Shown here piece by piece: positions 5,501-37,295 of a stretch of 41,698 nt of DNA. The DNA is taken from NCBI GenBank assembly GCA_025399215.1, contig MU621204.1, positions 10,741 to 52,438 on the forward strand, given 5' to 3'. The number at the start of each line of letters is the position of its first letter. The first letter of the stretch is position 1. Position numbers and translations under genes: made by a program. This DNA comes from Globomyces pollinis-pini. Lineage: Eukaryota > Chytridiomycota > Chytridiomycetes > Rhizophydiales > Globomycetaceae. A model generated the notes under the pieces. The model was not told where the DNA came from, made no database searches, and worked only from the letters and a program-made list of their open reading frames with translations.

Positions 5501-6795
5501 ATGAGCGGAAAATGGATATTCAGAGACAGAGAACTACTAAAGGCACCTAGTGTGTTGGAAGGGAAAACTATAGTCGAAGAATCTTGCTTGCGTTATTATG
5601 CTACTCACTTCTTGGAACGTTGTGGAAAGTCTTTGGGAATGTAACTTATTTAAAAAGCTCATTCTTTTAGGCCTCAGGAATTAATTAACAAGGGCAAACT
5701 ATTAATGCAAAGATTCTACATGAGGTGTTCTTTCCAAAAGTGGGAATACCATGAAGTTTCTGCTGCTTTACTCTTTTTATGTTCGAAAATAGGAAACTCT
5801 GGGAGTTATTTGAAAATCGAAACAATTATTGGAGTATGTGCTCGTGCTGCAAAGAAAGGGCATTCTGATTTGAGTGAAACCAGCAAAGTATTCCTTTTTT
5901 TCAATTAATTTTCGCGTTAGGAATTTTGTTATTGGTATGACAAAATACTCGTTACAGAACAACATATACTTGAAATGTTATGTTTTGATGATTGTCCTCT
6001 CTTACCCCATCCAATAGCTATCGATTTAATTCGAAGTTTTGGTGGTAACAAAGGTGTATAGTATTAATTCCCAGGATCTAAACAACTTCAATTACACGCT
6101 TTCCACTTATGCAGTGATGCGTGAGTTTTTCCTTTTTAACTTATCTTTCAGATTGTATTCTTCAGTATCCGTTCGTTATACACCAGAATTATTAGCACAA
6201 GCATCGGTTTATTTGGCCTGCTTAGCAACAAATGAATCGCTAAAGACCTTAAATGGAACCGATTGGAAACTTGCTAAGCGTTTGGGTATTCGAAAGTTAA
6301 AAGGTTTTTAATTCGCTTTTTGACTGTAAAGTGATTGCAAAAGAAATTGCATCCGCTAGAGATATAGGCCATCTCCGGTCAGTTACCGAAAAACTCGTTT
6401 TGAAGATAGAGGGCAAAGTCAAGACTTTGAATGCCTCTATTATTGTTCCAGTAAGTCAAAGAGTTCTGATTGAGACCCAGAGTCGTAGTGCTAAAAGGCC
6501 TACGTTGACATCTCCTGATGCAACTATTCCCAACAAAACTCCTATTCACCCGAAAGTTAATGGTTCAACTTTGACGGGTACTGTAAATCATGGATCCATA
6601 CCTTTAAATTGTACTCAAAACTTCAAGTCCAGTAACGACCGTTACCGTCCACCTCAACATGAAAGGCCGAAAGTCAATGCAGGTCGCACTGGACATGTAG
6701 TTGGAGATAGTAAATCCCACCGTGCTCATACAGTCCCGTCTGGTTACCAACCGTATCGACGACCTAACTCCCTTCCCCACAATACCCGCCACTAG
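5501..6795 (+). CDS. Cyclin T/K-type transcriptional cyclin
   Basis: Six exons: 5501-5640, 5671-5887, 5921-6044, 6075-6120, 6152-6303, 6332-6795, giving 380 residues. Introns are 30, 33, 30, 31 and 28 nt. The N-terminus (WIFRDRELLKAPSVLEG) matches the start of cyclin K/T and fungal Pch1/Ctk2-type cyclins. The first cyclin fold has RFYMRCSFQKWEYHEVSAALLFLCSKI and the second YTPELLAQASVYLACLA. Family members activate CDK9/CDK12-type kinases that phosphorylate the RNA polymerase II C-terminal domain during elongation. The last 120 residues are low-complexity and basic. The fourth exon is only 46 nt. Assignment to cyclin T versus K cannot be made by eye. Confidence 0.85.
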
Positions 6796-7030: not shown

Positions 7031-10000
7031 ATGCGACGACTACCTTCAACAATCAGTCAATTGAAATGCATTAGAAACAAAAGATGTTCAACTTCAACTT
7101 CTCATTCAAATCATTCAGATCCTTTCAATTTAAAACACTTGCTCCCTTCAAGGGATAATTTACATTTATCCTTAAATAAACCTTACGATTCTATAATGGA
7201 AAAGTCTTTGATGGATGAATTATTTCCCAAAGGAAATATTATATTGGATCAACCAGAATTGGCTTCAAACTCGGTCTTACTACATCGATCTTTAACCAAC
7301 AGTAAATTGGAAGAATCAATAGCTAGTATTTATGCTGCAATGGAATCAGATGATTTAGAATATGCTGAAGTCGTTTTCCATAAAATTTGGAGATCAAATC
7401 GTGCAGAATTGCAAAACAAGATAAATCCAAAAATGATTGAACGATTTATTGATTTATTTTTGGAAAAACAAAAACAGAATATGCTTATTTTGGACTATTA
7501 TCCTCGTGCAATGGAATGGTTTGACAATATGGAATCCGAATATAATGTGAAACGTACCATTTCAATATATGCTTGTGTTATATCCTATTATTTGGAAACA
7601 AGTCAAATACAACAAGCAAAAGATTGTATAAAGTCTTTGGAAGCGGATGGACTGCAATTGGACGAATTGCTTCAAACTACATACTTTTTTGAAGAACATC
7701 AAGTGAATCCTTTAAGAATCACTTTACAGTCCATGGGAAAAAATATACAGAAGCCTAATTCAGATATTGATAATTTATTACTCTCTGCTCTAGAAGATTC
7801 ACATCAGATATCAGACGACAAACCCACAGAAAGTGCCCTGGAGGATTTAACTGGAATAAAAACATTGGGTGTTTCAATTTTACGAAAAACTTTAGAAGGA
7901 AAAAAGAATACTGTTAATATGCCAAAGTACTCTCAACAGTTGTGGTTAGAACAACGAGCTTATACTGCCGCACAAGAATTATTTGAAGCCTCACAAGAAA
8001 ATATACCACAGGAAATGCGCAGAGTATGCAAATTACCACCAGATTTAATCCAAACTTGGCATGACGATTTAACTGTAGAAATTGAAGCATCGATAAAGTC
8101 TGGTGAACTTGACCCACAATACATGCCATTCATGAAATTATTACCTCCGGCGATCATGACTAGAATTGTGTTTGCTGAAATTCTTCGCACAAAACAACTT
8201 ACTGACGATGTCACTAAATTCGGTCAAATGCGTTTTTTAAACTTGGTAATGCAGATTGGAAAAGCAATTGAACGTGAACACAATTTAACACAATTAAATC
8301 AGAAAAAGAATTTGAAATTGGTATGCTAAATTATTCTTCTTAACATCATTATTAGGTTAATTTAGATAGAAGTGTCCACAAAATTCATTCTTCTGGAAAA
8401 CTATTATCCATGACCCTACGAAAAGCTATCACAGAGTTTAGTAAAAATGAGCACAAACGTAGCGACAAATGGAAACCACATTGGGGTGATAGAGCGTTGA
8501 TACAAATTGGAACTTTGCTGGTTGAAAAGTGTATCAAAGTCACCAAAGTTCCAATAAGAGTCCCTGCAACTGATGTTGCAAATACTTTCAAGTATCTTTC
8601 TAAATATTAACGAGATTAGTACTGAAATTGTTCCTGCGTTCAAGCATGATAAAATGTATATTGGACCAAAATGTGTTGGAATTATTGTCATTCATCCAGC
8701 CTTGAATGATTTAATACTAAACAATGTTGCAGATGTAGCCCCGTGGAGTTTACCAATGCTTGTACCCCCATTACCATGGCTAAGTCCAAATTCAGGGGGA
8801 TACCTACAGCATCGGTTTTCTATGGTCAGACACAAAAATTCAATGGAGCATAAAAGTTACATCCATGCGGCAGCAGAAGCTGGTCATTTAGTAACTGCCA
8901 TGCGGTCCCTTGACGCATTGGGTGCGGTACCATGGAAAATAAACGCAGCCATCTACAAAGTAGCTGCATACTTTTGGAATAGCAACATCAGTGTCCCTGG
9001 AATTCCTGTCTTGTTGGATGATATTCCTGAAATCGAAAAACCAGAGGATTATGAAACAAATTACAAAGCGAAATATGGTTACAAATCTGCCATATTGAAA
9101 AGAAAACAAACAATTCAAAATGCATTCAGTGAAAGATGTAGTACTAATTATAAATTGGATATTGCTCGAGCTGTAAGCTTTAATTTTTTCATGACTAGTT
9201 TATTGACGAGACCATTTATTTCCCACACAATCTGGATTTTAGAGGAAGGGCTTATCCTATGCCAGCTCATTTCAATCATATTGGAAACGATTTGTCTAGG
9301 GGATTGCTTTTGTTTGCCGAAGCTCGTCCTTTGGGTGCTAAAGGGCTAAGATGGTTGAAAATCCAAGTGTCCAACCTTTTTGGGAATGATAAGTAAAAGT
9401 TTAAATTGGCTCATTACTTTTAGGGTGTCTCTAGATGATCGTGAAAAGTTTACAGAAGCTCACATTGAAAATGTATTAGATTCAGCAAGAAATCCAATTG
9501 ATGTACTTTGTTTTATTTATAATTTCTAGGGAGATCAGTGGTGGCTTAAAGGAGATAACCCTTGGCAATTGCTAGCTACTTGTATTGAACTGGAGAAAGC
9601 ATTATCAGTGCCAGATCCTACAAAGTTTGAATCACGAATGCCTATTCATCAGGATGGATCTTGTAATGGGCTGCAGCATTATGCAGCACTGGGTGGTGAT
9701 ATCGAAGGTGCAAGACAGGTTAATTTGATTCCTTCAGATAAGCCTGGTGATGTTTATACTGCCGTAGCCAAAGGTGTTCAAAAACGAGTTGATGATGACG
9801 TATTGAAGAATATCCCTGAAGCTATATTAATGCAATCAAGAATTAATAGAAAAGTGGTGAAGCAAACTGTTATGACGAACACCTATGGAGTGACTAGAAT
9901 TGGTGCTAGGGAACAGATCTATAGTCGTTTGAAAGAGGCAAGGGTTAACGAGGACCCATCAACTGCACTAACTGATCCTCAAATGAGAAAATGTGCACAG

Positions 10001-11182: not shown

Positions 11183-13936
11183 ATGGCACAACGGAATAAG
11201 AAGGTAATTTCGGAATATCATAAGCTAAATTTGGTACAGAAAGAATGCAATGGTATTTTAAACTTATCAACTTAATTTGTTTACAGAAAAAGGAAAAAAG
11301 AAGAAGGTTAAAGAAGATGATATTTGGGAAATCGGAGATGAATCAGAAAGGTTAAGGATCAGAGAGTTTTGGATTCAATTGGGTGAGGAAGAACGAAAAG
11401 CTTTGGTTAAACTTGAAAAAGAAGCTGTGTTAAGGAAAATGAAAGAACAACAAAAACAAACTTGCTCTTGTAATGTATGCGGTCGTAGAAGGTATTGATA
11501 TTTATTTTCTTATATCTTTTAGGTAGAGTTTAATATCATCATTTATTGTTTAGGTTGATAAAATTTATACAGTGTTTAATGATATAGCAGAAGTGATCTA
11601 GAAGGCCAATTGGAACTTTTATATAATACATACTACGATGAACTTGAGAATTTTGCAAAGATGCAAATATCAGCTCCAGATGTATATACACAACACCCAC
11701 ATTCACATCATTATAATCACAATCAACTTCCTCATTTAACTGATGAAGATGACGAAGATGAGCTAGATGAAATGTATGACGATGATGATGAAGATTATGT
11801 CTCGGATTCAGAAGAGTCAGGGATTTTAGAGTTTGGTACAAGTTTGACCGTGAAAGGTAAAGATCATAGCTCTTTGTATTTTCGATAAAACTTAAATCAT
11901 CTAATGAATTAGTTGATTGTTTAGGTGGAATACTCACTGTAGCCGATGATTTCCTGAAAAACGATGGTCAAAAGTTTCTAAATCTTATGGAGCAGTTAGC
12001 CCAACGAAAAGTTAAGGTCATGGGCGAAGAGAAAGAGTATACATCTCCAGCAAATGAAAATGGTGATACTTGGGAAGAGGACTACGATGACATCTCTAAC
12101 TCTGATGAATATGAAGAGGATGTAGGTGAATATATTTAACATTAAGGAACATCTTACTGATCAACAACGTATGGAAGAGGGAAGAAGGATGTTTCAAATC
12201 TTTGCTGCCAAAATGTTCGAGCAGAGAGTGTTAACTGCATATAGAGAAAAGGTTTTACGATTAGTTTTAATGATTTTTAAAGGCTGCCGAAGCAAGAGCT
12301 GCAAAGTTAGTACAAGAATTAGAAGAAGAAGAACAACAAAAAAAATTGAAGGAAAAAAACAAAAAGCTGAAAGCTGAAAAAGAGAGGGAGAAACAGAGGT
12401 ATCTCATATTTGTAATTTTAACTTTGTTGAAGAGCTTTGAAACAAAAACAGGAGGCAGAGAAACTGCAGAAACAAAAGGAAGAAGAGGAAAAGGCAAGAA
12501 TTCAAAAAGAAGACAAGTAAATAATGATGGAATTTTAACCTGCAGACTGCGATCCCAAAAAGAAATTTCAACAAAAGAGCCAAAAAAATTAAATGCAAAA
12601 CAGAAAAAGCAAAAGCTTTTAGAGGAAAAGATTCGTAAAGAAGCTGAGGAAAATCTACGGGAGCAAGAAGAAGAAAGGGAGCGGAAACGTCTTGAAGATT
12701 TAGCTCTGATAGCAGCTGAAGAAAAGGCGCTGAAAGAGGCTATTGAGCAATCCAAATTGGAGGCAATAGAACATGCCAAGAGAATAGAATTGGAAAATCA
12801 AAGAAAAGAAGCTGAAAAAAAGCAAGCGGAAAAATCTATGAGGGAAGTGACCAAAAAGAAAAACAAAGCTGCCAAAAAATTGGCACAACAGGCAAAAGTA
12901 GAAAACGTCAAGCCATTACGGGTGCAGCAGCCAGTAGAGAACTTACGCACGACTGTACATCTTCAAGTTTCAGCTCAAACGTCAGTGCATGTCAGTCCTT
13001 CGGAAAGCATTGCTTATCACTCAGAAAAGAAACTGGATATTGCGTCACCAAAAATTAATGAGAATAGTAAAGCTAAAACCGAGGATGAAACTGATATACC
13101 AACCTTGATTCATACTCAAAAACATGTGCAACCTCCGTTGACCATTAGTGAACCTACTTTGTCTCAATTTTTACCTACTCCTCAATATCAGACGTATGAA
13201 AAAGAAAGACAACCGGTTCAATCAACAGTCGAACCACCAGTGTTTCCTCGAGAGTTGTTGAACGAAGGGACACCTCCTGTTCGATCTGAAATAAAGAATC
13301 TATGGGCAGATAACAACAGCTCCAACATTTGGGAACCGAACACTGCTACTAGTTTGAATCCTGAAGTCCCCATTTCTACTCAATATTTACCAAACGCACG
13401 AATGAATCATGTGAATGTAGGTCAAAGGCCTTTGTTTAATAGGAGAGGAGGTAATACAGTTACACAACAGCAGTTTACAGCTGCTAGACCTACTTTGGCC
13501 ACCCAAAGTGCACCACCAGGATTTGCTTATCAACAGTCACCACTTCCATTCAATGCAGCCATGATGAGCATGAATTCACATACACAACAACCGTTTTTAC
13601 CTCCAAATGTAGTTCCACATACTGCAACTTTAGGCTTAAACAATCAGATACCACTAGGGAATCAAGCAGGGTTACATAATAGTAATATGTTACATAGCCA
13701 ATTTGTAAATCCAATTGTTCCCAATAACCCGATGCAGAACGTGTATAATCAGAATAATCATTTAAACCAAGCAAATCGTAATAGAAAATAATAATCTAAC
13801 GTTAGCGAACCCTTCCATACTGTCACCAAATCTCTACAATGCTGCGCGACCACCTCGTCCTGCTTTTTTCAATAACCAGAGTGGTGGATATTTAAACAAC
13901 CCATCTGAGCGAGACGGATTTTCTGGCTACTATTAA
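11183..13936 (+). CDS. NST1: NST1-family stress-response protein
   Basis: Ten exons: 11183-11203, 11240-11252, 11287-11491, 11591-11856, 11925-12121, 12147-12251, 12283-12398, 12433-12516, 12546-13777, 13806-13936, giving 789 residues. NST1 hallmarks are the block [30 protein letters not shown] (a zinc-knuckle-like CxCxxC), [36 protein letters not shown] and [22 protein letters not shown]. An acidic stretch, a long charged coiled coil and a Gln/Asn/Pro-rich tail follow. Family knowledge: a cytoplasmic fungal protein linked to salt tolerance and mRNA processing. The introns are unusual: 36, 34, 99, 68, 25, 31, 34, 29 and 28 nt. The 99-nt one is three abutting units and the 68-nt one is possibly nested. 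The second exon is only 13 nt. The N-terminus is shorter than in yeast-type NST1, and the start is the least certain part. Confidence 0.93.
11492..11590 (+). other. Run of three abutting GT...AG intron units in NST1
   Basis: The gap between the exons ending CGRRR and starting DLEGQLE is 99 nt. It divides exactly into 11492-11522 (31 nt), 11523-11553 (31 nt) and 11554-11590 (37 nt). Each unit begins GT and ends AG, and they meet at two AG|GT junctions (11521-11524 and 11552-11555). There is no base between units. Removing the whole block restores the NST1 reading frame, whereas keeping the first unit gives a stop (AGG TAT TGA). Confidence 0.8.
11857..11924 (+). other. 68-nt NST1 intron, candidate nested (twin) intron
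   Basis: The intron between SLTVK and GGILTV spans 68 nt, about twice the local norm. It contains an inner GT...AG segment of 37 nt (11876-11912). Removing this leaves an outer GT...AG intron of 31 nt. Both sizes are within the local range. A single 68-nt intron is equally compatible with the sequence. Confidence 0.5.
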
Positions 13937-18198: not shown

Positions 18199-18353
18199 TA
18201 CAAATTTTCCTGTTGAAATGCGTCATTTGCCGTGTGGTTTCAACCAATATATTTTTAGTGGACCCCTCATTAAAATAAAAATGCTTACAAGAAAGCACTT
18301 GGGGGGGGGTAAAGTTCCCTACACGGCTCTGTTAAATTGTAAGTAGGTGATAA

Positions 18354-18361
18354 TATAAATA
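18354..18361 (+). promoter_or_regulatory. TATA box of secreted protein gene 1
   Basis: TATAAATA starts 34 bp before the ATG at 18388. A run of nine G residues (18301-18309) lies about 45 bp further upstream. Confidence 0.6.
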
Positions 18362-18387
18362 CTCACGACACTTCACTACTGAGACCA

Positions 18388-18858
18388 ATGAATTTCATCT
18401 ATTTATCTTTTGTATATGTAACCTTATGCCTTCCAGGACAGCTAGATCAAGCTGACCATAAACTGATCGCTCGCCAGGATGGTCCAAGTGCTCCAAGTGG
18501 TGATTCAACTGGATTACCTGTGCCACCACCATCTGAAAAACCCGGTGATGGTCCATCAAAAGAACCAACAAAAACAAATAATGGTCCAAATGGACAATCG
18601 ACTAAGACAAAAGGTAGTAAAACAAAGACTGGAGGGAATAAAACCAAAACGAAAACCAACTACCCTACGATTACAAACAAATCGGATGGGGCTAAAACAG
18701 ATGAAGGTGGTGTTACAAGAACTGCAGGACAAAGTTCAACCGAAACTATCCCAGCAGGCCCATCTGGTGATGGAGGAGTGAAGGCAAATTCAGAAATGCG
18801 TTTGATGTCCAATGTAGTGACTTATCTGGTTAGTTTTATTGTTGTAAGCCAAGTGTAA
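18388..18858 (+). CDS. Secreted low-complexity protein 1, GPI-type C-terminus
   Basis: Single exon, 156 residues. The N-terminal signal peptide is MNFIYLSFVYVTLCLPGQ. The mature part is rich in Gly, Pro, Thr, Lys and Ser, with KTK-type repeats (TKTKGSKTKTGGNKTKTKTN). The C-terminus ends in a hydrophobic tail (VVTYLVSFIVVSQV) preceded by a short polar region, as in GPI-anchor signals. Likely a cell-wall or surface protein. No enzymatic domain is seen. It is the first of three co-directional genes of the same design (18388-21266), each with its own TATA box, so they are separate transcription units. A decayed partial copy of its 3' region may lie at 18981-19037. Confidence 0.75.
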   Translation: MNFIYLSFVYVTLCLPGQLDQADHKLIARQDGPSAPSGDSTGLPVPPPSEKPGDGPSKEPTKTNNGPNGQSTKTKGSKTKTGGNKTKTKTNYPTITNKSDGAKTDEGGVTRTAGQSSTETIPAGPSGDGGVKANSEMRLMSNVVTYLVSFIVVSQV

Positions 18859-19268
18859 TATAATTCGTGTCAAACTGAAAGATTATACAGATGAAACTGA
18901 GTTATTTCCGGTATGTGAGACTTGAATATAGAAGGTTTAACGGACTACCTTACTAAGGAACATAAATCAACTCTATGGGTGAGAAGGCGGTGTTACTAAT
19001 GGAAGGCGAAGGTTCAACTGTAACTTTCGAGCCAATGGATCAAAATCAAATTACTGAAAGAACGTGTTTACCTACAAATGTTAACAATACATATTTAATA
19101 TCATTCAATCAGAACCAATTCGTTACAGTTTAGTTTAACTTCTTTGTGTTGTGAGAACTTACAGAAGCTAAACATAAATTTGTTTGGCTTCAGAACAAGC
19201 CTGTCCATCACAAGTACACAGCCTGACATTGGAGTATAAATAGCCGTGTTCATTTGTATGCAAATCAA
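18859..19268. other. Intergenic region between secreted protein genes 1 and 2
   Basis: Contains a stretch at about 18981-19037 resembling the coding sequence at 18703-18755 of the preceding gene, and a TATAAATA box at 19235. No ORF of note. Confidence 0.45.
19235..19242 (+). promoter_or_regulatory. TATA box of secreted protein gene 2
   Basis: TATAAATA starts 34 bp before the ATG at 19269, the same spacing as in gene 1. Confidence 0.6.
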
Positions 19269-19730
19269 ATGAAATTCTTTGCTTCCTTAGTTCTTATTAC
19301 CGCCGTGATTATCGCACAAAGTGACTCAGAGCCAGTATCCAACAATGATGGAAATGGACCAATCCCAATCGGAAACCCAACAACCCCTAAACCACCTGCA
19401 AATCAAGGACCACAATCCAATCAAGTGCCAAACAGTCCTAGTCCGCAGTCCAGCCAACTCCCAAATAGTCCAAATCCGTCTGTGACAATTTCTTCTAAAG
19501 AAACCATAACTTCAGGTCCATCTATCACCATAAGTCCTGGCCAGGAAACAAGGACAATGACAATGACAATGGACTCTACCATGACTAGACCTGATACAAG
19601 TTATCCTACGAAAACTGGAAGCTCCAACACTCAACCTAAACCTACTCTTACTCCTAGTGCAGGATTAGCAAAAACAGATTCCAGTTGGGGATTGATTGTC
19701 TTGGCTGCTTTAGCTGTACTTAATATGTGA
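19269..19730 (+). CDS. Secreted low-complexity protein 2, GPI-type C-terminus
   Basis: Single exon, 153 residues from the ATG at 19269. The ATG at 19258 is out of frame and closes after four codons. Signal peptide MKFFASLVLITAVIIAQ. Just after it comes PVSNNDGNGPIPIG, a motif shared with gene 3. The rest is Pro/Ser/Thr/Asn-rich with short imperfect repeats (PSPQSSQLPNSPNP) and a TMTMTMDSTMT stretch. The C-terminus LIVLAALAVLNM fits a GPI-attachment signal. Probably a glycosylated surface protein of the fungal wall. No catalytic domain. Confidence 0.75.
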   Translation: MKFFASLVLITAVIIAQSDSEPVSNNDGNGPIPIGNPTTPKPPANQGPQSNQVPNSPSPQSSQLPNSPNPSVTISSKETITSGPSITISPGQETRTMTMTMDSTMTRPDTSYPTKTGSSNTQPKPTLTPSAGLAKTDSSWGLIVLAALAVLNM

Positions 19731-19901
19731 AATTTTGTTGAATAAATAGCTTATCTGTGCATTATTGAAATAGGGATCTTTATAATTAAAATTTAGATGA
19801 TTTTATTTACATACATGTGTCAGTTTGACGAATAGTTCGTTAGGTCTATGCAGTATTCATGTACTTTTACTTGATGGTGTATTTGTTTTAGATTTGTGGT
19901 T

Positions 19902-19914
19902 CGAAGTGGTTTCA
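19902..19914 (+). repeat. 13-bp direct repeat, copy 1
   Basis: CGAAGTGGTTTCA. The identical sequence recurs at 20202-20214, both copies in the region between secreted protein genes 2 and 3. Possibly a transcription-factor site or duplication scar. Confidence 0.6.
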
Positions 19915-20201
19915 CAAATTGAAGGTTAGATTTTATAATATTTTTTTGTGGAGAATGCTCAACGAAAGTTATCAAGATTGAAATGGATGATATCATATCA
20001 ATCTGAATAGGAATATCAAATATTCTCTAATAAAAAATATTTCAAATTTCACGAGTTCTATAGAAAGATTTCAGAAGTGCTATGTACATTGATTCGCGAA
20101 ACATTCAAATAGAATCAGATACGATGCAACACTTGTCGATGAACGATCCAATGAGTGTGTGGGCTTTTGTGATGTCATTGCATCAATGTAGGCATCAATC
20201 G

Positions 20202-20214
20202 CGAAGTGGTTTCA
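20202..20214 (+). repeat. 13-bp direct repeat, copy 2
   Basis: CGAAGTGGTTTCA, identical to 19902-19914. It lies 42 bp upstream of the TATA element of secreted protein gene 3. Confidence 0.6.
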
Positions 20215-20243
20215 TACATGCAGGCTTCTAACTTTTTTTTGGA

Positions 20244-20250
20244 TATAAGC
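20244..20250 (+). promoter_or_regulatory. TATA-like element of secreted protein gene 3
   Basis: TATAAGC starts 36 bp before the ATG at 20280, close to the 34-bp spacing of the two preceding genes. Confidence 0.5.
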
Positions 20251-20279
20251 AATGACACACTTTCTGAAATGTTTTAACA

Positions 20280-21266
20280 ATGAAAATAATTTATCTTACT
20301 GTACTATTGAATGTAATATATGCCATACCACAAGATGGGTCTGAAGCAGTGTCCAACAATGATGGAAAAGGGGCAGTTGTGATTGACGGTTCTGAAGCAG
20401 TGTCGAATAATGATGGAAAAGGAGCAGTTCTGATTGATGACACCGCTAATTTACCTCAGAAGGCACCACAACGCGAAAAACAGATTGAACTTCCAGTCTC
20501 GAATAATGACGGTAAAGGAGCTGTACCTATTATATCCACTCCAGCCCCTGCTCCTCCTCCACCTCCACCTCGACCTCCTACACCTCCTCCAAGGCCCCCA
20601 AGTCCTCCACCTCCAAGACCACAAAAGCAAAACCGGCCTTATGGAAACCAGAATCCATACAAACAACAAGGAAATCGCTACCCTCAAAGGCCTTATGGTC
20701 ATGAACAACAACGTCCACAACAGCGACCATATGGCTATGGACAACAACGTCCACAGCAGCGACCATATCGACATGAACAACAGCGGCCTTATGGACAGAA
20801 CCAAGGTGGTTATAATGTACCATCAAGACCAAAACCTTATAATGTACCTGTAATAACCCCAGTTCCAGCCCCTATTCCAACGTCTAATCCTGTACCTAAC
20901 CCTGTACCAACTCCTGTACCTACTCCAGGCAATTCCGGATCACCATCTGGTTCGTCATCCGGTTCTGAATCTACTTCTAGTTCAGGATCTACATCTACTG
21001 GTCCATCATCACCTTCAGGTTCATCAACTGGAACTGAATCCTCTTCTGGATCAGGGTCTACAGGTTCAGGTTCATCATCCCCAAATCTACCAATCGAGCC
21101 ATCAAGTGTACCTCAACCTCCAACCACAATGGATGGTTTACCATCACCATCTTCCACGGATGGATCGCAACCATCAACTACCCCAGGAACAATTGTATCT
21201 GCCGGTATCATGACCAACATCTCTAACACCATATTGATGTTAGTTATTGCAACGCTAACCTTATAA
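20280..21266 (+). CDS. Secreted Pro/Gln/Ser-rich repeat protein 3, GPI-type C-terminus
   Basis: Single exon, 328 residues. Signal peptide MKIIYLTVLLNVIYAIPQ. Three copies of VSNNDGKGAV follow (about residues 24-83), the same motif seen once in gene 2. Then a proline-rich block (PAPPPPPPRPPTPPP), a Gln/Arg/Tyr-rich block with repeats of RPYGHEQQRPQQ type, a VPxPVP-type block and a long Ser/Gly/Thr region. The tail ITNISNTILMLVIATLTL-like segment is hydrophobic and ends the protein, fitting a GPI signal. Likely a wall protein or adhesin-like stalk. Its stop lies 54 bp from the stop of the convergent PRP4 gene. Confidence 0.75.
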   Translation: MKIIYLTVLLNVIYAIPQDGSEAVSNNDGKGAVVIDGSEAVSNNDGKGAVLIDDTANLPQKAPQREKQIELPVSNNDGKGAVPIISTPAPAPPPPPPRPPTPPPRPPSPPPPRPQKQNRPYGNQNPYKQQGNRYPQRPYGHEQQRPQQRPYGYGQQRPQQRPYRHEQQRPYGQNQGGYNVPSRPKPYNVPVITPVPAPIPTSNPVPNPVPTPVPTPGNSGSPSGSSSGSESTSSSGSTSTGPSSPSGSSTGTESSSGSGSTGSGSSSPNLPIEPSSVPQPPTTMDGLPSPSSTDGSQPSTTPGTIVSAGIMTNISNTILMLVIATLTL

Positions 21267-24191: not shown

Positions 24192-25491
24192 ATGTCAAAG
24201 CCATTCAAAATCACCTTACAGAAATCACATTTTACCATTCAAGACAGCGTATGAACCATCTTGTTAATCCTAGGAAACTACCTATAAATACAATGGTGAT
24301 TTGAAGCCAGTTATTGATTCTTTAAATACTCTATCCATACCTGAAGATGCTGCTCCTTTTATCCCTCAAGACTGCTTTCTAAATGGTTTGATCTGTTTCT
24401 CTTATCCATTAGGCAAAATGGTCGTCGATATTCATGACTACAGGTACTGCATAAAAGTTCTTATTCGATTAGGTGTTAAATTAATTCTCTTATATTAGGT
24501 AATAAGAATATATCATAATAACAATAAAAGGTTGAAGCATGATTGTTTAACTCTTTAGGTATTTCTCTTTCATCAACTAAAAATAGATACAACTATCCTA
24601 CATTTGTTCAATTAAAATTAAACCACAACGATGAAAGTCTTCGTAATGATTTAAATTCATTCGGGTTGGATTATTTGGGTGAGGAATGGAATGCACAAAC
24701 TTCATTAGAATTACAATCAAAAATACTTGTAAATTGTTTACAATTCTTTACAATAGCCACATTTATATAACTCCTTGGACTTGGATCCAAATCCGGAAAT
24801 ACATCGCGCAAAAACATTACAAGCTTATAATAAAAATAAGTATTTTCTCAAACGAAAACGACCTTCTGATTGGGCAGATAAAGAAAAAGAAGAAATAGAA
24901 AGAAAGGAATCTGCAAAATTGATGCTTCTCATGGATAAAGTAATTACGTAATTCAGTTAATCAAGTTCCAATTAGACAAATAATGTTGAATTTTATCCTA
25001 GATTTTCTCAAATATCGTTTGTGGAAGATTGGAGAAAGAATAAGCAAGAGGCGGAAAAGATGTTTCTAAAAGGGAAAAACGACAAAAATACAATCAGATT
25101 GAATTTAAATCCTCTAGGTTATAAAATTGGAAAAAAAATAACATTTCATAGCTCGTAAAACTACACAGTTAGAATATAACCTCAATTCAAGAATTCTAAG
25201 GACAATCAAATTCGAATCAATACAAGAAAGACCTGATCCATGTACAAAAATGTATACAAAATTCAACATGTATTGACAGTACAATCTCATCATTCTAGTT
25301 ATGAAGTTGGAGATGACTCATTTGAAGGTGTATTAAGGTGGGGAAAAGCAGAGGGGACTAGTATTGGAGGAGATACTTTGCGATACTTGATTGGAAATAA
25401 GGAAGCGGTAGATCACTATGTTAGTCAATTCAAGCAGTTTTATGGATTACTCCACAAATGTGTATATGACTCGATGGATGCTGATAGTTGA
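24192..25491 (+). CDS. SPT20: SAGA complex subunit SPT20
   Basis: Seven exons: 24192-24248, 24274-24443, 24587-24728, 24757-24939, 24976-25117, 25152-25241, 25280-25491, giving 331 residues with a closed frame. Conserved Spt20 blocks are visible: MVVDIHDYR, YPTFVQLKL, SLDLDPNPEIHRAK with LKRKRPSDWA, YPRFSQISFVEDWRKNKQ, RILRTIKFES, DDSFEGVLRWGKAEGT and a C-terminal HYVSQFKQFYGLL. The protein is a structural subunit of the SAGA histone acetyltransferase coactivator in the nucleus. It is short, lacking the long Gln-rich tail of yeast and animals. Introns are 25, 143, 28, 36, 34 and 38 nt. The 143-nt one is a run of five abutting units. Confidence 0.92.
24444..24586 (+). other. Run of five abutting GT...AG intron units in SPT20
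   Basis: The gap between exons encoding DIHDYR and YNYPTFVQL is 143 nt and divides without remainder into 24444-24472 (29), 24473-24498 (26), 24499-24530 (32), 24531-24558 (28) and 24559-24586 (28). Every unit starts GT and ends AG, with four AG|GT junctions. Unit sizes match the 24-38 nt range of single introns elsewhere in the window. Removing all five joins AG to A (Arg) and restores the Spt20 frame. Retaining the last unit alone gives a stop, and retaining the first alone shifts the frame. Confidence 0.88.
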
Positions 25492-28709: not shown

Positions 28710-30446
28710 ATGCCTTTACCTTCAACAAATCTTATACAAGCACCATACCTATCCTTACGATTCTCGTTCAAGAATATCGTAATTATCTCATCTGTAATTC
28801 CATTTAGATTATATCGACTCTTGTGTTTTTATTCACCCTACAAATATTATATATTTTCAGACAATCAGTTGGTGTCTTTTTCAACGATAATATTTATCAA
28901 TTACTATCACTTATTGTGATTGTGTTGGTAGGAATTTGGGGTGGTAGATTAGCTGAACGAGTTGGTCAGGATCCAATGCTTGGAATGTTATTTTCTGGAT
29001 TATTATTGAGGAATTTATTCCCTTCCTTCATTTATCCAATACCACATTCTTGGACTTCTATTCTTTGGACAACTGCACTCTGTTCAGTGATTTCACGTGC
29101 TGGATTGTCTTTGATGTTACCAAAAGTGATTCCTAACGTATGGGAATCTTTGTTTCTAGGAACAGTTCCTGTTTTGGCTGAAGCTATTATGCTTGCTCTG
29201 ATGACATCTGTCGTTTTTCATTTACCTTTACCTTGGGCTTTTACTCTGTCTTTTGGTGTATCTACTATATCTCCTGGTATGGATAAATAAGTTAACTATA
29301 GGTGTGGTTGTACCTTTATTGTTACGTTTGATAGATAATGGATGGGGAAAAAGTCGATTACCACCAATGTTACTCACAGGTACTCTGACACCTTATACCA
29401 TTTTACTCGTTTCATGAGATACATTTCTTAATCTATTATCAACGATATTACGAATTCTAATGTATATTAGGTCTCGGTTTAGATGTTTTGGTTGGTACCG
29501 CTGGTTTTGGAATCTCTTTAGCTTCCTGTTTCGGGTATTCCAAATAACCTAATCCCAGACATAAACATGAACAAGACCACCCAGAACTTTGGTTTCACAA
29601 TTCATGGGTTGGAAGGTAAACAGAATGTAAATATTGACATAAAAAGATGTCTGGAAGAAATAGGAATGGGATTATTTTTGGGAACTACATTTGGATTCGT
29701 CAGTTTTGTACTATTAAAGTCAAAGAGAATATCTGGTCGGGTATTATCAATGGTTATGTTTGTGGTAAGTACAGTCACTATGATATGGTGTAAAACTCAT
29801 GGATTCACTGGATCTGCATCTTTTTCTACGTTCATTACCTGGAGTATAATAGCCAATACATGGCCTCAGAATTATATCGAAAAATCGGATATCAGGTAAA
29901 TTATGATTCCTATTGATGGTTCAATTAGGTATATTAGTGAAGTTCAAATAGTTTTTTTAGATTAAAGAAGTTGTGGTTATTTTTCAAGCCATTTCTATTT
30001 CCTGTAATTGGGGCGACCGTGTCCTTGGGAGATACTCCTATATCACTTCTTTTAAAAAGTTTTTCGATAGTGTTAGTGTCAGTAACGGTAAAAATGTCTG
30101 CAACATATATTACAGCGACTGCTGCTGGCTTGTCAGATGCAGAAGCAATGTTTGTGTGTGGTTTATGGAGTGGTAAAGCAAGTATACAAGTAAATTTGTT
30201 GAAGATTTTGATTATTAGGCAACTTTATGTGAATCGGCCTTGGAGATGGTACACAAATACAAACTGGAAGGAACAGAGGAAGAAGAGTATGCAAAAATAG
30301 TGTTCTTGTGTATGGTATCTGCCATCGTTATTGGAGCACCTAGTGCGTCCAATTGGGTGTTAATCTATGGTAAAAATCCACTTGGAGAAGAAACTGCCAA
30401 TCCAATTATGAAAGCAGAAGGGACATCAGAGCAGGTGGATATTTAA
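28710..30446 (+). CDS. Cation/proton antiporter (CPA / Na+-H+ exchanger fold)
   Basis: Seven exons: 28710-28778, 28808-29276, 29302-29379, 29471-29527, 29559-29895, 29961-30189, 30219-30446, giving 488 residues in frame. The product has a dozen or so hydrophobic segments, the SISPGVVVPLLLRL helix that resembles the discontinuous helix of CPA antiporters, and GLGLDVLVGTAGFGIS at the position of the ion-binding helix (Asp present). It best fits fungal/animal SLC9B-like or bacterial CPA proteins that exchange Na+ or K+ for H+; the ion is unknown. Introns are 29, 25, 91, 31, 65 and 29 nt. The 65-nt one is two abutting units. The fourth intron uses an unusual donor, GTTTCG, chosen because it alone keeps the frame. 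Confidence 0.82.
29896..29960 (+). other. Run of two abutting GT...AG intron units in the antiporter gene
   Basis: The 65-nt gap after EKSDIR divides exactly into 29896-29928 (33 nt) and 29929-29960 (32 nt), each GT...AG, meeting at one AG|GT junction. Removing both joins AG to A (Arg) and continues LKKLWLFFKPFLF in frame. Confidence 0.78.
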
Positions 30447-31766: not shown

Positions 31767-33189
31767 TTAAAAGAGTGGAGGGTTTGCATTTTTAACAAGC
31801 ATTAGGAATTCATCTTCAAACCATTGACCAGCTTGAGGAGCATTTGCCAAAGAATCAACTCCCATACTAGTAGTAGGATCACAGAATCCATCTAACCTTG
31901 GTGCCCCAGGTGGACCAGAGACACCATCAGATTCACCTGGTGGTTTGACCCATACAAACGCGTCAATTGCTGGTAATGGGTCAACTTCTGGTCGTGGTCC
32001 AATTCCAGATCCCTTGATATTACACCATGATCCCCATCTGGTTCGGATTCCTGCTTGTCCATTTCTACTTGTATCGATCAAGAATCGTGATGGTAAACCA
32101 GCTTTACTAAATTTAGCAGACAATTGACTGGTAAAGGTAGATTCATCGATACATGCATTTCCTTGGTATGTCAATACACCATTATTATTTTGAAGTGGTT
32201 GCTCCTTTGCTGGTGCAATTCCCTTTGCAAAAACTGGACTGTAATTGGATACATTACTAATAAAACCAGTCACTTTTACATTTGGATTTAATGATTTTGC
32301 TGCTTCAATGACACGTTTAAATATTGGGATCATTTTTGATTGATTATCTTCCCAACCCAACCATCCTACTAGTTAAATCATTTTGTATTTTACCTCCATG
32401 AGCACAATCAATATATTGATAAACATTAGGAAGTGTAAGTTGTGCCAAAGCATAGGCTACTCCACCTTCGTAGTCTGGAGTTGCTTTACCACACGTTTCA
32501 GGGAATGTTTGCAAGTTGGTAGCCAAATTTGGTAAAGAATCTGGTTCGATGATTAGAGAGACACGAACGTTTGGATCGGCATTGGAAATCAAAGTTTTAC
32601 GAATGGCATCAATGTAATCAGTTTTATAACGATTCAAATCACCTCTTTTGATTTCTCCATTGGATGCTAATGCAGCACAATCGCGACCTGGTAAATCGTA
32701 CACGACAAACTGGATAACAACTGGATTTTCTTTGGAAGCTTGTTTTGATGCAGCTTTTAATGCTGGTGCAATTCGACTGATATTTTCAATCGTATCAATC
32801 CAAATGGCAGTAGAAATCTTTTTGAATGCATCAACAGCTGGTGCTAATGGAGATCCTGGTTTGAGAGACCCTTCCACAGCCTTGATGTACTCTGGATTGA
32901 TGAATCCAGTGGCACCTTTATATGGATTAAAAGATCCATCCCCACATTGATCTGATGAACCTACCCCAGGTTGGCATGGTACAGGACTCGAAGTTGGTTT
33001 AGGTCCTAAAGTAGTCACCACTACTTGCGTGGTTAAAGGTGGAGACACGGTTGTGACTGGATTAACAGGTTTTGGTAAACATTGAGAGTAATATTCGTTG
33101 GAAACCGTACAAACAGATGTCACATCACAGCAAAATGGGCCTGAAAACCCCTTACCACCACATTGTTGCCAAACAGAAGCACAAGACAT
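31767..33189 (-). CDS. GH6 cellobiohydrolase/endoglucanase with N-terminal CBM1
   Basis: Two exons on the minus strand: 33189-32394 and 32365-31767, giving 464 residues. One intron of 28 nt falls inside HGGWLGWEDN. Residues 3-38 are a CBM1 cellulose-binding domain (VWQQCGGKGFSGPFCC), then a Pro/Thr/Val linker, then the GH6 domain: FVVYDLPGRDCAALASNGE, SLIIEPDSLPN with the proposed catalytic acid, RTRWGSWCNIKG and FVWVKPPGESDG. It hydrolyses cellulose by inversion. The start codon is followed at once by the CBM1 and preceded in frame by TAA, so no signal peptide is encoded, which is odd for a secreted enzyme. TATAAATA lies 44 bp upstream (minus strand, 33233-33226). It suggests a plant- or algal-matter-degrading lifestyle. 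Confidence 0.93.
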
Positions 33190-35740: not shown

Positions 35741-37295
35741 ATGAATTTCCAACGGATTTCTAGAAGTGTACTGATAGGAACAAACAGAGCATTATTAAAT
35801 TATCCTAAAGTGCTATCAAAGGTTCAGCTGTATCGTGCTGCTCCTGCTTTAAACTTAAATGTCAGACTTTACTCTCAAAATCATTCTGACCCTTTCACAC
35901 AAGGTTTGTACATTGAAATCTAAACTAAAGCAATGGCTGAACAAAAGAAATTAGAAGAGGAACAGAAAAAGGAAAAAGAGAATAAAGATGATGAAGAACC
36001 AAAGACTGAACCAACTGACGAAGAAAAAATTGAACAGAAATCAGCTTCTAATTATGGATTCTTCATCTTTCTAGGAGTATTGTCATCTTATCTATACGCT
36101 GGTTCGTTTTTACTTGCTGATTCTTTAGGCTTTACTTACGATTCTCCTAATCTAGAGGGTGAAAATGCATTCGTTGCACACAATAGACGTGTTATGGAAT
36201 CAATTAAAGACTCATATGATGTACTATTTTATACTTAATGTACAGTATCTCACCAATCCTCCAACAAAATCTTTGCTTCCTCCTTTGCCACCACAATTAC
36301 GTAGAGATTACACTTTATGTTTGGAATTGACTGACGCTTTGACGCATTTGGTTTGGGAAAAGGACCTTGGTTGGAGAGTCGCTATCCGACCTGAAGCCAA
36401 GAAAATGCTGTTAGCTTTACACAGCTTTTACGAATTGGTTATATTTACAAACACCCCAAGTCACGTACTTAATATTTTATTTAACCATAGTTTGCAAAAC
36501 CTGTTATTGCTGCTTTGGATCCATTTAGTGCAGTTACTTTCAAGCTTTTCCGAGAACATCATCGTTTAAGCGGTGGTAAATTAAAATTGAAACTCATTTG
36601 TTAGATGCTTATTTGAAAGACCTAGAATTCTTGAACAGGGATTTAAGCAAGGTTATTGTGGTTGATGTGGACGAATCATGCTTGGCTAGTCATCGTGATA
36701 ATGGTTTACTGTTGAAAAAATGGACAGGTAGTGATTGATGAACAATTATTTTATTTTTTAGGGGAGCATGGAGATTCGGAAATTTCAAAATTGACATCAA
36801 CACTATTGGGTAATTTTCATAATATTCTAATGACTAGAATTATACTTTTATGCGGATGTTCACAAAGTCTCGGATATTCGAACATTATTGAATGAAATCA
36901 ACAAGATCGATGCCAAGGATATTTCAGGATCATGGCAAAAGTATAAAGATCAATTAAAGGACCTTGAGTTCCAACAGCATGAATCAACATCACAAAGTTC
37001 TGGCTTTTCAGTGACTGGTATTGCCAAGTCACTTGTAGGAGGATTTGGTAGAAACTCTCAAGCCTTAAAATCTTCTGCTACTATTTCTGAAATTGAAAGA
37101 CATTGCAAGTTGATTAAAGCTCGAATGGATAGTACTTATAACCAACATTTAGCTGAGCAAGCCCGATACTTGGAAGAGCAAGAACAATTTATTGAACAAC
37201 AAAAACAAGCACTGAAGAATAGTGATTTGAAACTAATTGATTATATAATGGGTAATGGACCAAACTTGGAAGGTGAATTGCCAGAACAACGCTAA
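35741..37295 (+). CDS. TIM50: Mitochondrial import inner membrane translocase subunit TIM50
   Basis: Seven exons: 35741-35902, 35930-36220, 36246-36464, 36491-36575, 36605-36727, 36762-36809, 36838-37295, giving 461 residues. Introns are 27, 25, 26, 29, 34 and 28 nt. A basic presequence (MNFQRISRSVLIGTNRALL) is followed by an acidic coiled stretch, one membrane span (FFIFLGVLSSYLYAGSFLL) and an FCP1-like phosphatase fold: RRDYTLCLELTDALTHLVWE, FYELVIFTNTPSH, LNRDLSKVIVVDVDES and YADVHKVSDIRTLLNEI. The catalytic DxDx motif is not conserved (LELTDA), as in other TIM50 proteins. It is the presequence receptor of the TIM23 complex, facing the intermembrane space. It has a longer charged C-terminal coiled coil than animal versions. 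Confidence 0.95.

Follow-up and report, generated by a model that had tools for sequence, protein, structure and literature searches.

Can spliceosomal introns lie end to end inside a gene, with no exon between them? The question is raised by the SPT20 gene of the chytrid Globomyces pollinis-pini (Chytridiomycota, Rhizophydiales), which is located in a stretch of 41,698 nucleotides (nt) of contig MU621204.1 (assembly GCA_025399215.1, positions 10,741 to 52,438), in the following called the window. A sequence-only reading of this DNA had described 143 nt of the gene as five ultrashort introns placed head to tail. Tiny introns that follow one another in the genes of this chytrid without intervening coding sequence are an unusual kind of gene interruption, and the arrays offer a test case for intron growth and splicing. 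We observe that the block tiles exactly into units with intron-like features, that junctions of this kind recur at intron spacing across the genome, that the flanking protein is contiguous and that some arrays contain local copies of their own units. On these grounds we regard the SPT20 block as probably five ultrashort U2-type introns in tandem, separated by zero-length exons and removable unit by unit, the array having grown partly by local duplication.

Removal of the SPT20 introns, which are in order 25, 27, 143, 28, 36, 34 and 29 nt long, leads to one open frame, and a version of the gene model differing solely at the last intron matches the Pfam family Spt20_SEP at E 9.6e-12. The gene, the putative array and its units are the following, the scores being those of the splice sites:

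24192..25491, + strand: SPT20 gene (Spt20_SEP), ATG to stop, spliced gene model, 325 amino acids with all introns out
24444..24586, + strand: putative tandem array of five introns, 143 nt in phase 2, flanked by DY(AG) and (A)YNYP, exact tiling
24444..24472, + strand: array unit 1, 29 nt, donor 4.1, acceptor 4.9, single copy in the genome
24473..24498, + strand: array unit 2, 26 nt, donor 2.3, acceptor 5.4
24499..24530, + strand: array unit 3, 32 nt, donor 5.2, acceptor 3.8, ends in AAG
24531..24558, + strand: array unit 4, 28 nt, donor 1.6, acceptor 6.1, has TTAAC, single copy in the genome
24559..24586, + strand: array unit 5, 28 nt, donor 5.4, acceptor 3.9

Cutting the block at its AGGT words confirms that it consists of exactly 29+26+32+28+28 nt, all units being GT...AG and joined by four AG/GT junctions. 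The splice-site scores of the units are average (donors 1.6-5.4, acceptors 3.8-6.1, with single-intron means of 4.3 and 4.0), the donors of units 2 and 4 being weak. Among themselves the units are dissimilar, with a best adjacent similarity score of 0.13. Their sizes resemble those of single introns, as had been stated, both in the same gene (25, 27, 28, 36, 34 and 29 nt) and in a sample of 262 kb (28.5 +- 3.0 nt, n=431). The single introns of SPT20 are:

24249..24273, + strand: single intron, 25 nt, spliced model
24386..24412, + strand: single intron, 27 nt, spliced model
24729..24756, + strand: single intron, 28 nt, spliced model, junction as in P0001
24940..24975, + strand: single intron, 36 nt, spliced model, junction as in P0001
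25118..25151, + strand: single intron, 34 nt, spliced model, junction as in P0001
25270..25298, + strand: single intron, 29 nt, spliced model, junction as in P0001

P0001 is the deposited SPT20 protein of Globomyces pollinis-pini (BC833DRAFT_593481). A 38-nt form of the last intron was dropped, P0001 indicating 29 nt. Over the block this protein reads DYR/YNYP, i.e. the block is absent from it.

The sequence-only reading had also held that frame and homology return with removal of the entire block and not otherwise. For homology this is right, for the frame not strictly so, as seven splice chains with introns of 18-45 nt stay open. The six chains besides full removal leave 8-27 added residues, for which the alignment with five relatives (P0002-P0006) contains no counterpart, and therefore homology backs full removal alone. 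Among the viral contigs searched no SPT20 relatives were found.

That the AGGT pattern lies beyond chance is borne out by dinucleotide shuffling of the block, repeated 100,000 times with fixed GT/AG ends. In total 107 shuffles carry as many AGGT words and three tile completely into units of 23-38 nt. The blocks were taken for this test as found within the window, the counts being uncorrected for their selection; for two others, described below, the tiling shuffles number 263 (11492-11587, NST1-like gene) and 9697 (29896-29960) of 100,000. Since the SPT20 block was picked out of the window, a genome-wide spacing count was taken as the independent test. The genome comprises 18.5 Mb on 459 contigs, with the window on contig C115, and the three-junction pattern consists of AGGT followed twice by TAGGT at set tile lengths. 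At tiles of 26-38 nt there are 154+185 = 339 matches, as against 10+5 = 15 at 39-51 nt and 12+9 = 21 at 11-23 nt. The two-junction form yields 386+461 = 847 matches at 26-38 nt versus 138+127 = 265 at 39-51 nt, and the stricter TAGGTA form 61+93 = 154 versus 19+10 = 29 backwards. Read backwards, the three-junction pattern has 261, 252 and 270 matches at tiles of 26-38, 39-51 and 11-23 nt. The reversed word is thus flat across the spacings, which reflects a commoner word and does not account for the peak at 26-38 nt; the three-junction counts were judged by the spacing control in place of the reversed-word control. A genome-wide look at AGGT spacing had been named beforehand as a check on the array, and this word count, which rests on the genome sequence rather than on a transcript-based intron set, is strongly favourable to it. 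Among the matches listed, 100 of the 339 three-junction matches represent 67 loci (hand count), a few of which resemble coding repeats. Scaled from these 100 there are about 225 three-junction loci with background still included, so that roughly two hundred loci in this genome have three such junctions.

Do arrays in other genes behave like that of SPT20? We modelled 13 runs, 12 at loci from three-junction matches (12 of 20 places initially selected, each with at least two overlapping matches) and one, L025, from a strict two-tile pattern. That pattern has 8 matches, most of which are not clear introns, and its reversed control has 3; L025 and L029 were examined further. As AGGT spacing governed the choice of the 13 loci, they are no measure of frequency. 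The modelled arrays have 9, 10, 10, 7, 5, 6, 4, 4, 3, 5, 3, 5 and 7 abutting units and total 87-289 nt, with model scores from 45.6 down to 11.2, the weakest (L044, L041, L040) being less sure. The Pfam scan covered ten of the 13 spliced products (L039, L041 and L044 were outside it), and each of the ten has a family match with E no higher than 0.001, the Usp match lying under its curated cut-off. We took continuity over the joint as the test that matters and compared five products with solved structures; all five are ungapped at the joint:

UBE2G: joint HPN/VH, five units removed
CHMP3: joint AKE/VV, ten units removed
MCM8: joint DLQ/GDLF, seven units removed, in a poorly conserved stretch
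Kynurenine aminotransferase: joint VT/GWK, three units removed
SAMHD1-like protein: joint SYY/VY, five units removed

In addition, the joint IFK/QP of a ten-unit array in a dioxygenase gene is continuous in the relatives P0112 and P0114-P0116. Ultrashort introns placed head to tail are supported in SPT20 and in other genes alike, by the 339 matches and the 13 modelled runs.

The sample mentioned above consists of 262,137 bases (the window and L002-L024), on which a gene model was trained that allows introns to be chained. This self-training model used stronger intron penalties; with a weak penalty it yielded false introns by the thousand, and that version was not used. According to the gene models, ultrashort GT...AG introns of about 20-40 nt appear to be the main class here, with 431 single short introns and 17 arrays (13 of two units, three of three and one of five) among 448 short-intron sites. 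The sample also holds 27 long single introns, many of which are probably joins between genes. Decoy junctions (AG/GA, AG/CT, AG/TG and AG/GC) yield 4, 0, 3 and 2 two-unit arrays and no longer ones. Hence some of the two-unit arrays are false, and arrays of at least three units, which make up 4 of the 448 sites, have no decoy counterpart. Apparent introns of 74-91 nt that do not tile were seen in L017, L024, L009 and the antiporter gene of the window, one with TACTAAC near its end; this minority class suggests a second intron size class.

The units of arrays were compared with single introns. Mean lengths are 29.2 nt for array units of the sample (n=40), 29.1 nt for those of the chosen loci (n=78) and 28.5 nt for singles, the GC content is 0.27 in all three groups, and T or C precedes the final AG in 0.93, 0.90 and 0.87, respectively. 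A GTC donor occurs in none of 60 units chained by AGGT and length alone, free of any gene model. The branch-point-like word YTRAY near the 3' end was absent from every search pattern. It is found in 0.59 of singles, 0.40 of array units in the sample and 0.49 at the chosen loci, versus 0.22 of shuffled sequences, and likewise in 0.48 of 165 distinct genome-wide units versus 0.21 of shuffled ones (from 100 listed of the 154 TAGGTA matches). In the 13 chosen arrays the word is present in 0.38 of first (n=13), 0.54 of internal (n=52) and 0.38 of last units (n=13). That internal units are no poorer in it than end units argues that they are used, and as diverged units retain the word, each unit is probably a working intron.

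From these features we infer unit-by-unit splicing in free order and a way in which arrays may grow. Every unit, within about 24-37 nt, would have a donor, a branch-point region and an acceptor to itself, and the spliceosome could find it through intron definition. For ultrashort introns, recognition across the intron is expected, and zero-length exons would require that. Units could leave singly, in any order or merged with neighbours, the messenger RNA being identical in each case. Because all boundaries are AG/GT, any donor paired with a later acceptor would remove whole units and leave either AG/GT or the finished joint, and the order of splicing should not matter. Growth, at least in part, would occur by local duplication of a whole intron in tandem. 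The duplicate would bring its own GT and AG, so that the new intron would be neutral at once, and the copies would later diverge with selection holding the splice signals. The wider claim is that arrays of up to ten units form a distinct class of complex introns, individually spliced without fixed order, neutral on arrival by duplication and multiplying in place without a mobile element; to this we incline only slightly.

Several points weigh against this interpretation. The evidence for the arrays comes from DNA, proteins and gene models, and the length and splice-site likeness of model-found units is partly built into the model and the search patterns. A GTA start is less frequent in array units (0.72 in the sample, 0.68 at the chosen loci) than in singles (0.87), and no YTNAY word is present in SPT20 unit 3. 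The two-unit class contains false members, no fewer than two of the 13 resembling misread exons by their motifs. The reversed-word control is high (261 versus 339 at 26-38 nt), though flat with spacing. Two units retained by the deposited dioxygenase protein P0111 would contradict full removal if that protein were transcript-based. Finally, judged by eye from the protein encoded on either side, non-tiling introns of 68 nt (NST1-like gene), 74 nt (two genes), 75 nt and 91 nt seem genuine, and one-step removal across such lengths may therefore occur. One may thus suppose that the 143 nt leave as one intron, whose donor is that of unit 1 and whose acceptor is that of unit 5, the inner units being passive relics of duplication, and P0001, which shows the block gone, leaves the manner of removal unspecified. 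However, passive relics should lose their branch-point words, and 78 of 100 adjacent unit pairs are already without detectable similarity, whereas internal units have YTRAY no less often than first and last ones and more often than shuffled ones; we consider one-step removal unlikely. It is harder still to maintain that some units are real small or alternative exons and the arrays mosaics of introns and micro-exons, although the six further open-frame chains of the SPT20 block and the two units (57 nt) kept in frame by P0111 would allow it. The added residues are absent from the relatives both of SPT20 and of the dioxygenase, and the five products compared with structures are ungapped at their joints, which makes this a very improbable account. 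Mere chance spacing of AGGT within AT-rich introns would account for two-unit tilings, which are frequent in shuffles of the 65-nt case at 29896-29960, but in view of the SPT20 and NST1 shuffles and the genome-wide counts we attach practically no weight to it.

How the units came to be there is a separate matter. The sequence-only reading had suggested repeated insertion of intron units at AG/GT sites, and in the same sense the units might be independent insertions of a mobile intron (introner) at such sites, including those created by earlier introns. The lack of detectable similarity in most adjacent pairs fits such insertions, as does an exon ending in AG, which precedes 0.29 of single introns. 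However, a genome-wide search with four array units, SPT20 units 1 and 4 included, that allowed at most three mismatches and skipped very common words gave 2, 3, 1 and 1 places, all of them in the unit's own array, and likeness is highest between neighbouring units. Among 100 listed of the 154 TAGGTA matches, 22 of the 100 adjacent pairs are more alike than 99% of random pairs, 11 lie above the 99.9th percentile, and two consist of identical sequences, of 28 and 32 nt. These pairs are not independent, because some share a unit, and C115:31611 is a coding repeat of the window. For the remaining 78 pairs and the SPT20 units divergence is too great to tell their origin. One pair of single introns has a similarity score of 0.68; likeness between singles of different loci did not enter the comparison. 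In the youngest-looking arrays, L034 (C12:42083-42254) and C68:15955-16039, neighbouring units are identical or nearly so and have no copies elsewhere. The alike pairs together with the lack of outside copies suggest that whole introns were duplicated locally in tandem and then diverged, which would fit the sequences better than a mobile element, and repeated insertion at AG/GT sites is not established. The search with SPT20 units 1 and 4 lowered a little further the small chance that we had given to mobile introns, which we now regard as improbable. Tandem duplication would by extension be the source of SPT20's own array.

Four known systems come close to these arrays. Recursive splicing at ratcheting points, or zero-length exons, is known from Drosophila and other animals and likewise joins acceptor and donor as AG/GT without an exon, the intron being removed in successive pieces (PMC2773006). 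Such juxtaposed 3' and 5' splice sites are present here, four in SPT20 and in the 339 genome-wide three-junction matches. Its pieces belong to large introns, whereas here each is about 28 nt long and as many as ten adjoin, in a block of 143 nt in SPT20 and of 87-289 nt in the 13 chosen arrays. Stwintrons are fungal complex introns of two U2 introns removed in consecutive reactions, in which the internal intron breaks a splice element of the outer one (PMC9024468, PMC7138796). In contrast, our units, modelled up to 10 in a row, are all whole-ended; the five of SPT20 are GT...AG and abut at AG/GT, with no outer donor, branch point or acceptor disrupted. Intron gain by DNA repeat expansion in Cryptococcus resembles the arrays in local duplication and identical copies within one gene, but in what we saw of that report abutting introns without an exon are not described (PMC2395259). 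Fungal introner-like elements are also spliceosomal introns that multiply, yet they form dispersed families (PMC4457414), while the four units searched here are confined to their own arrays and lack near-identical copies at many loci. Among the open-access titles and abstract openings listed (subscription papers and preprints lay outside this scope), no chain of three or more abutting spliceosomal introns was found, and within the same range the assumption that a run of five with zero-length exons is new stands.

If tandem growth is true, intron number can rise in place through copying of whole introns, without a transposon and without change to the exons, and the neutral origin of new introns becomes testable. 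One genome would then also make testable how spliceosomes choose partners among many equal donors and acceptors less than 40 nt apart.

There is a practical side as well, since of three deposited Globomyces proteins checked at arrays only one is right there. P0001 is correct at the SPT20 array, though it comes without upstream exons. P0080 (CHMP3) begins inside an array unit, and the N-terminal part found in relatives is missing; its first 14 residues are the straight reading of two array units. P0111 keeps two units of the ten-unit array as 19 residues, which are absent from P0112 and P0114-P0116. We take the array readings of P0080 and P0111 as annotation errors, and going by two of three checked, public gene models may often be wrong at arrays.

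Two further candidate arrays are located in the window:

11492..11587, + strand: array of three units, of 31 nt (11492-11522), 31 nt (11523-11553) and 34 nt (11554-11587), in an NST1-like gene
29896..29960, + strand: candidate array of two units (33+32 nt) within a gene resembling sodium/hydrogen exchanger 9B2; tiling evidence weak by itself

The Pfam NST1 match (E 2.7e-38, residues 5-107 on profile 79-180) crosses the joint of the three-unit array at residue 79. Further on, this gene has a 68-nt intron (11857-11924) that contains no AGGT and can not be tiled. At 29896-29960 the gene model of the sample reads the flanks in the wrong frame. A hand-spliced product aligns over the joint with 9B2 structures (E 2.1e-09), with one query residue unmatched nearby; the hand-spliced piece has no Pfam match.

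Some two-unit arrays of the sample were set aside. Going by family motifs, the one at L012 (- strand, 8431-8486) in a septin-like gene and the one in the window at 36704-36761 in a TIM50-like gene appear to be false, their first unit being readable as protein. The cases at L019 (- strand, 5769-5826) and L013 (+ strand, 9700-9760) are located at gene ends and are doubtful.

In the window as a whole, Rfam gives no match at gathering scores. On the - strand, open frames at 31767-33189 encode what is presumably a glycoside hydrolase-like protein, preceded by a cysteine-rich N terminus which we take to resemble a fungal cellulose-binding module. At 18343-21266 there are three adjacent open frames of secreted look, two of which have a VSNNDGxG motif in common, and the last contains tandem repeats of 51, 36 and 69 bp.
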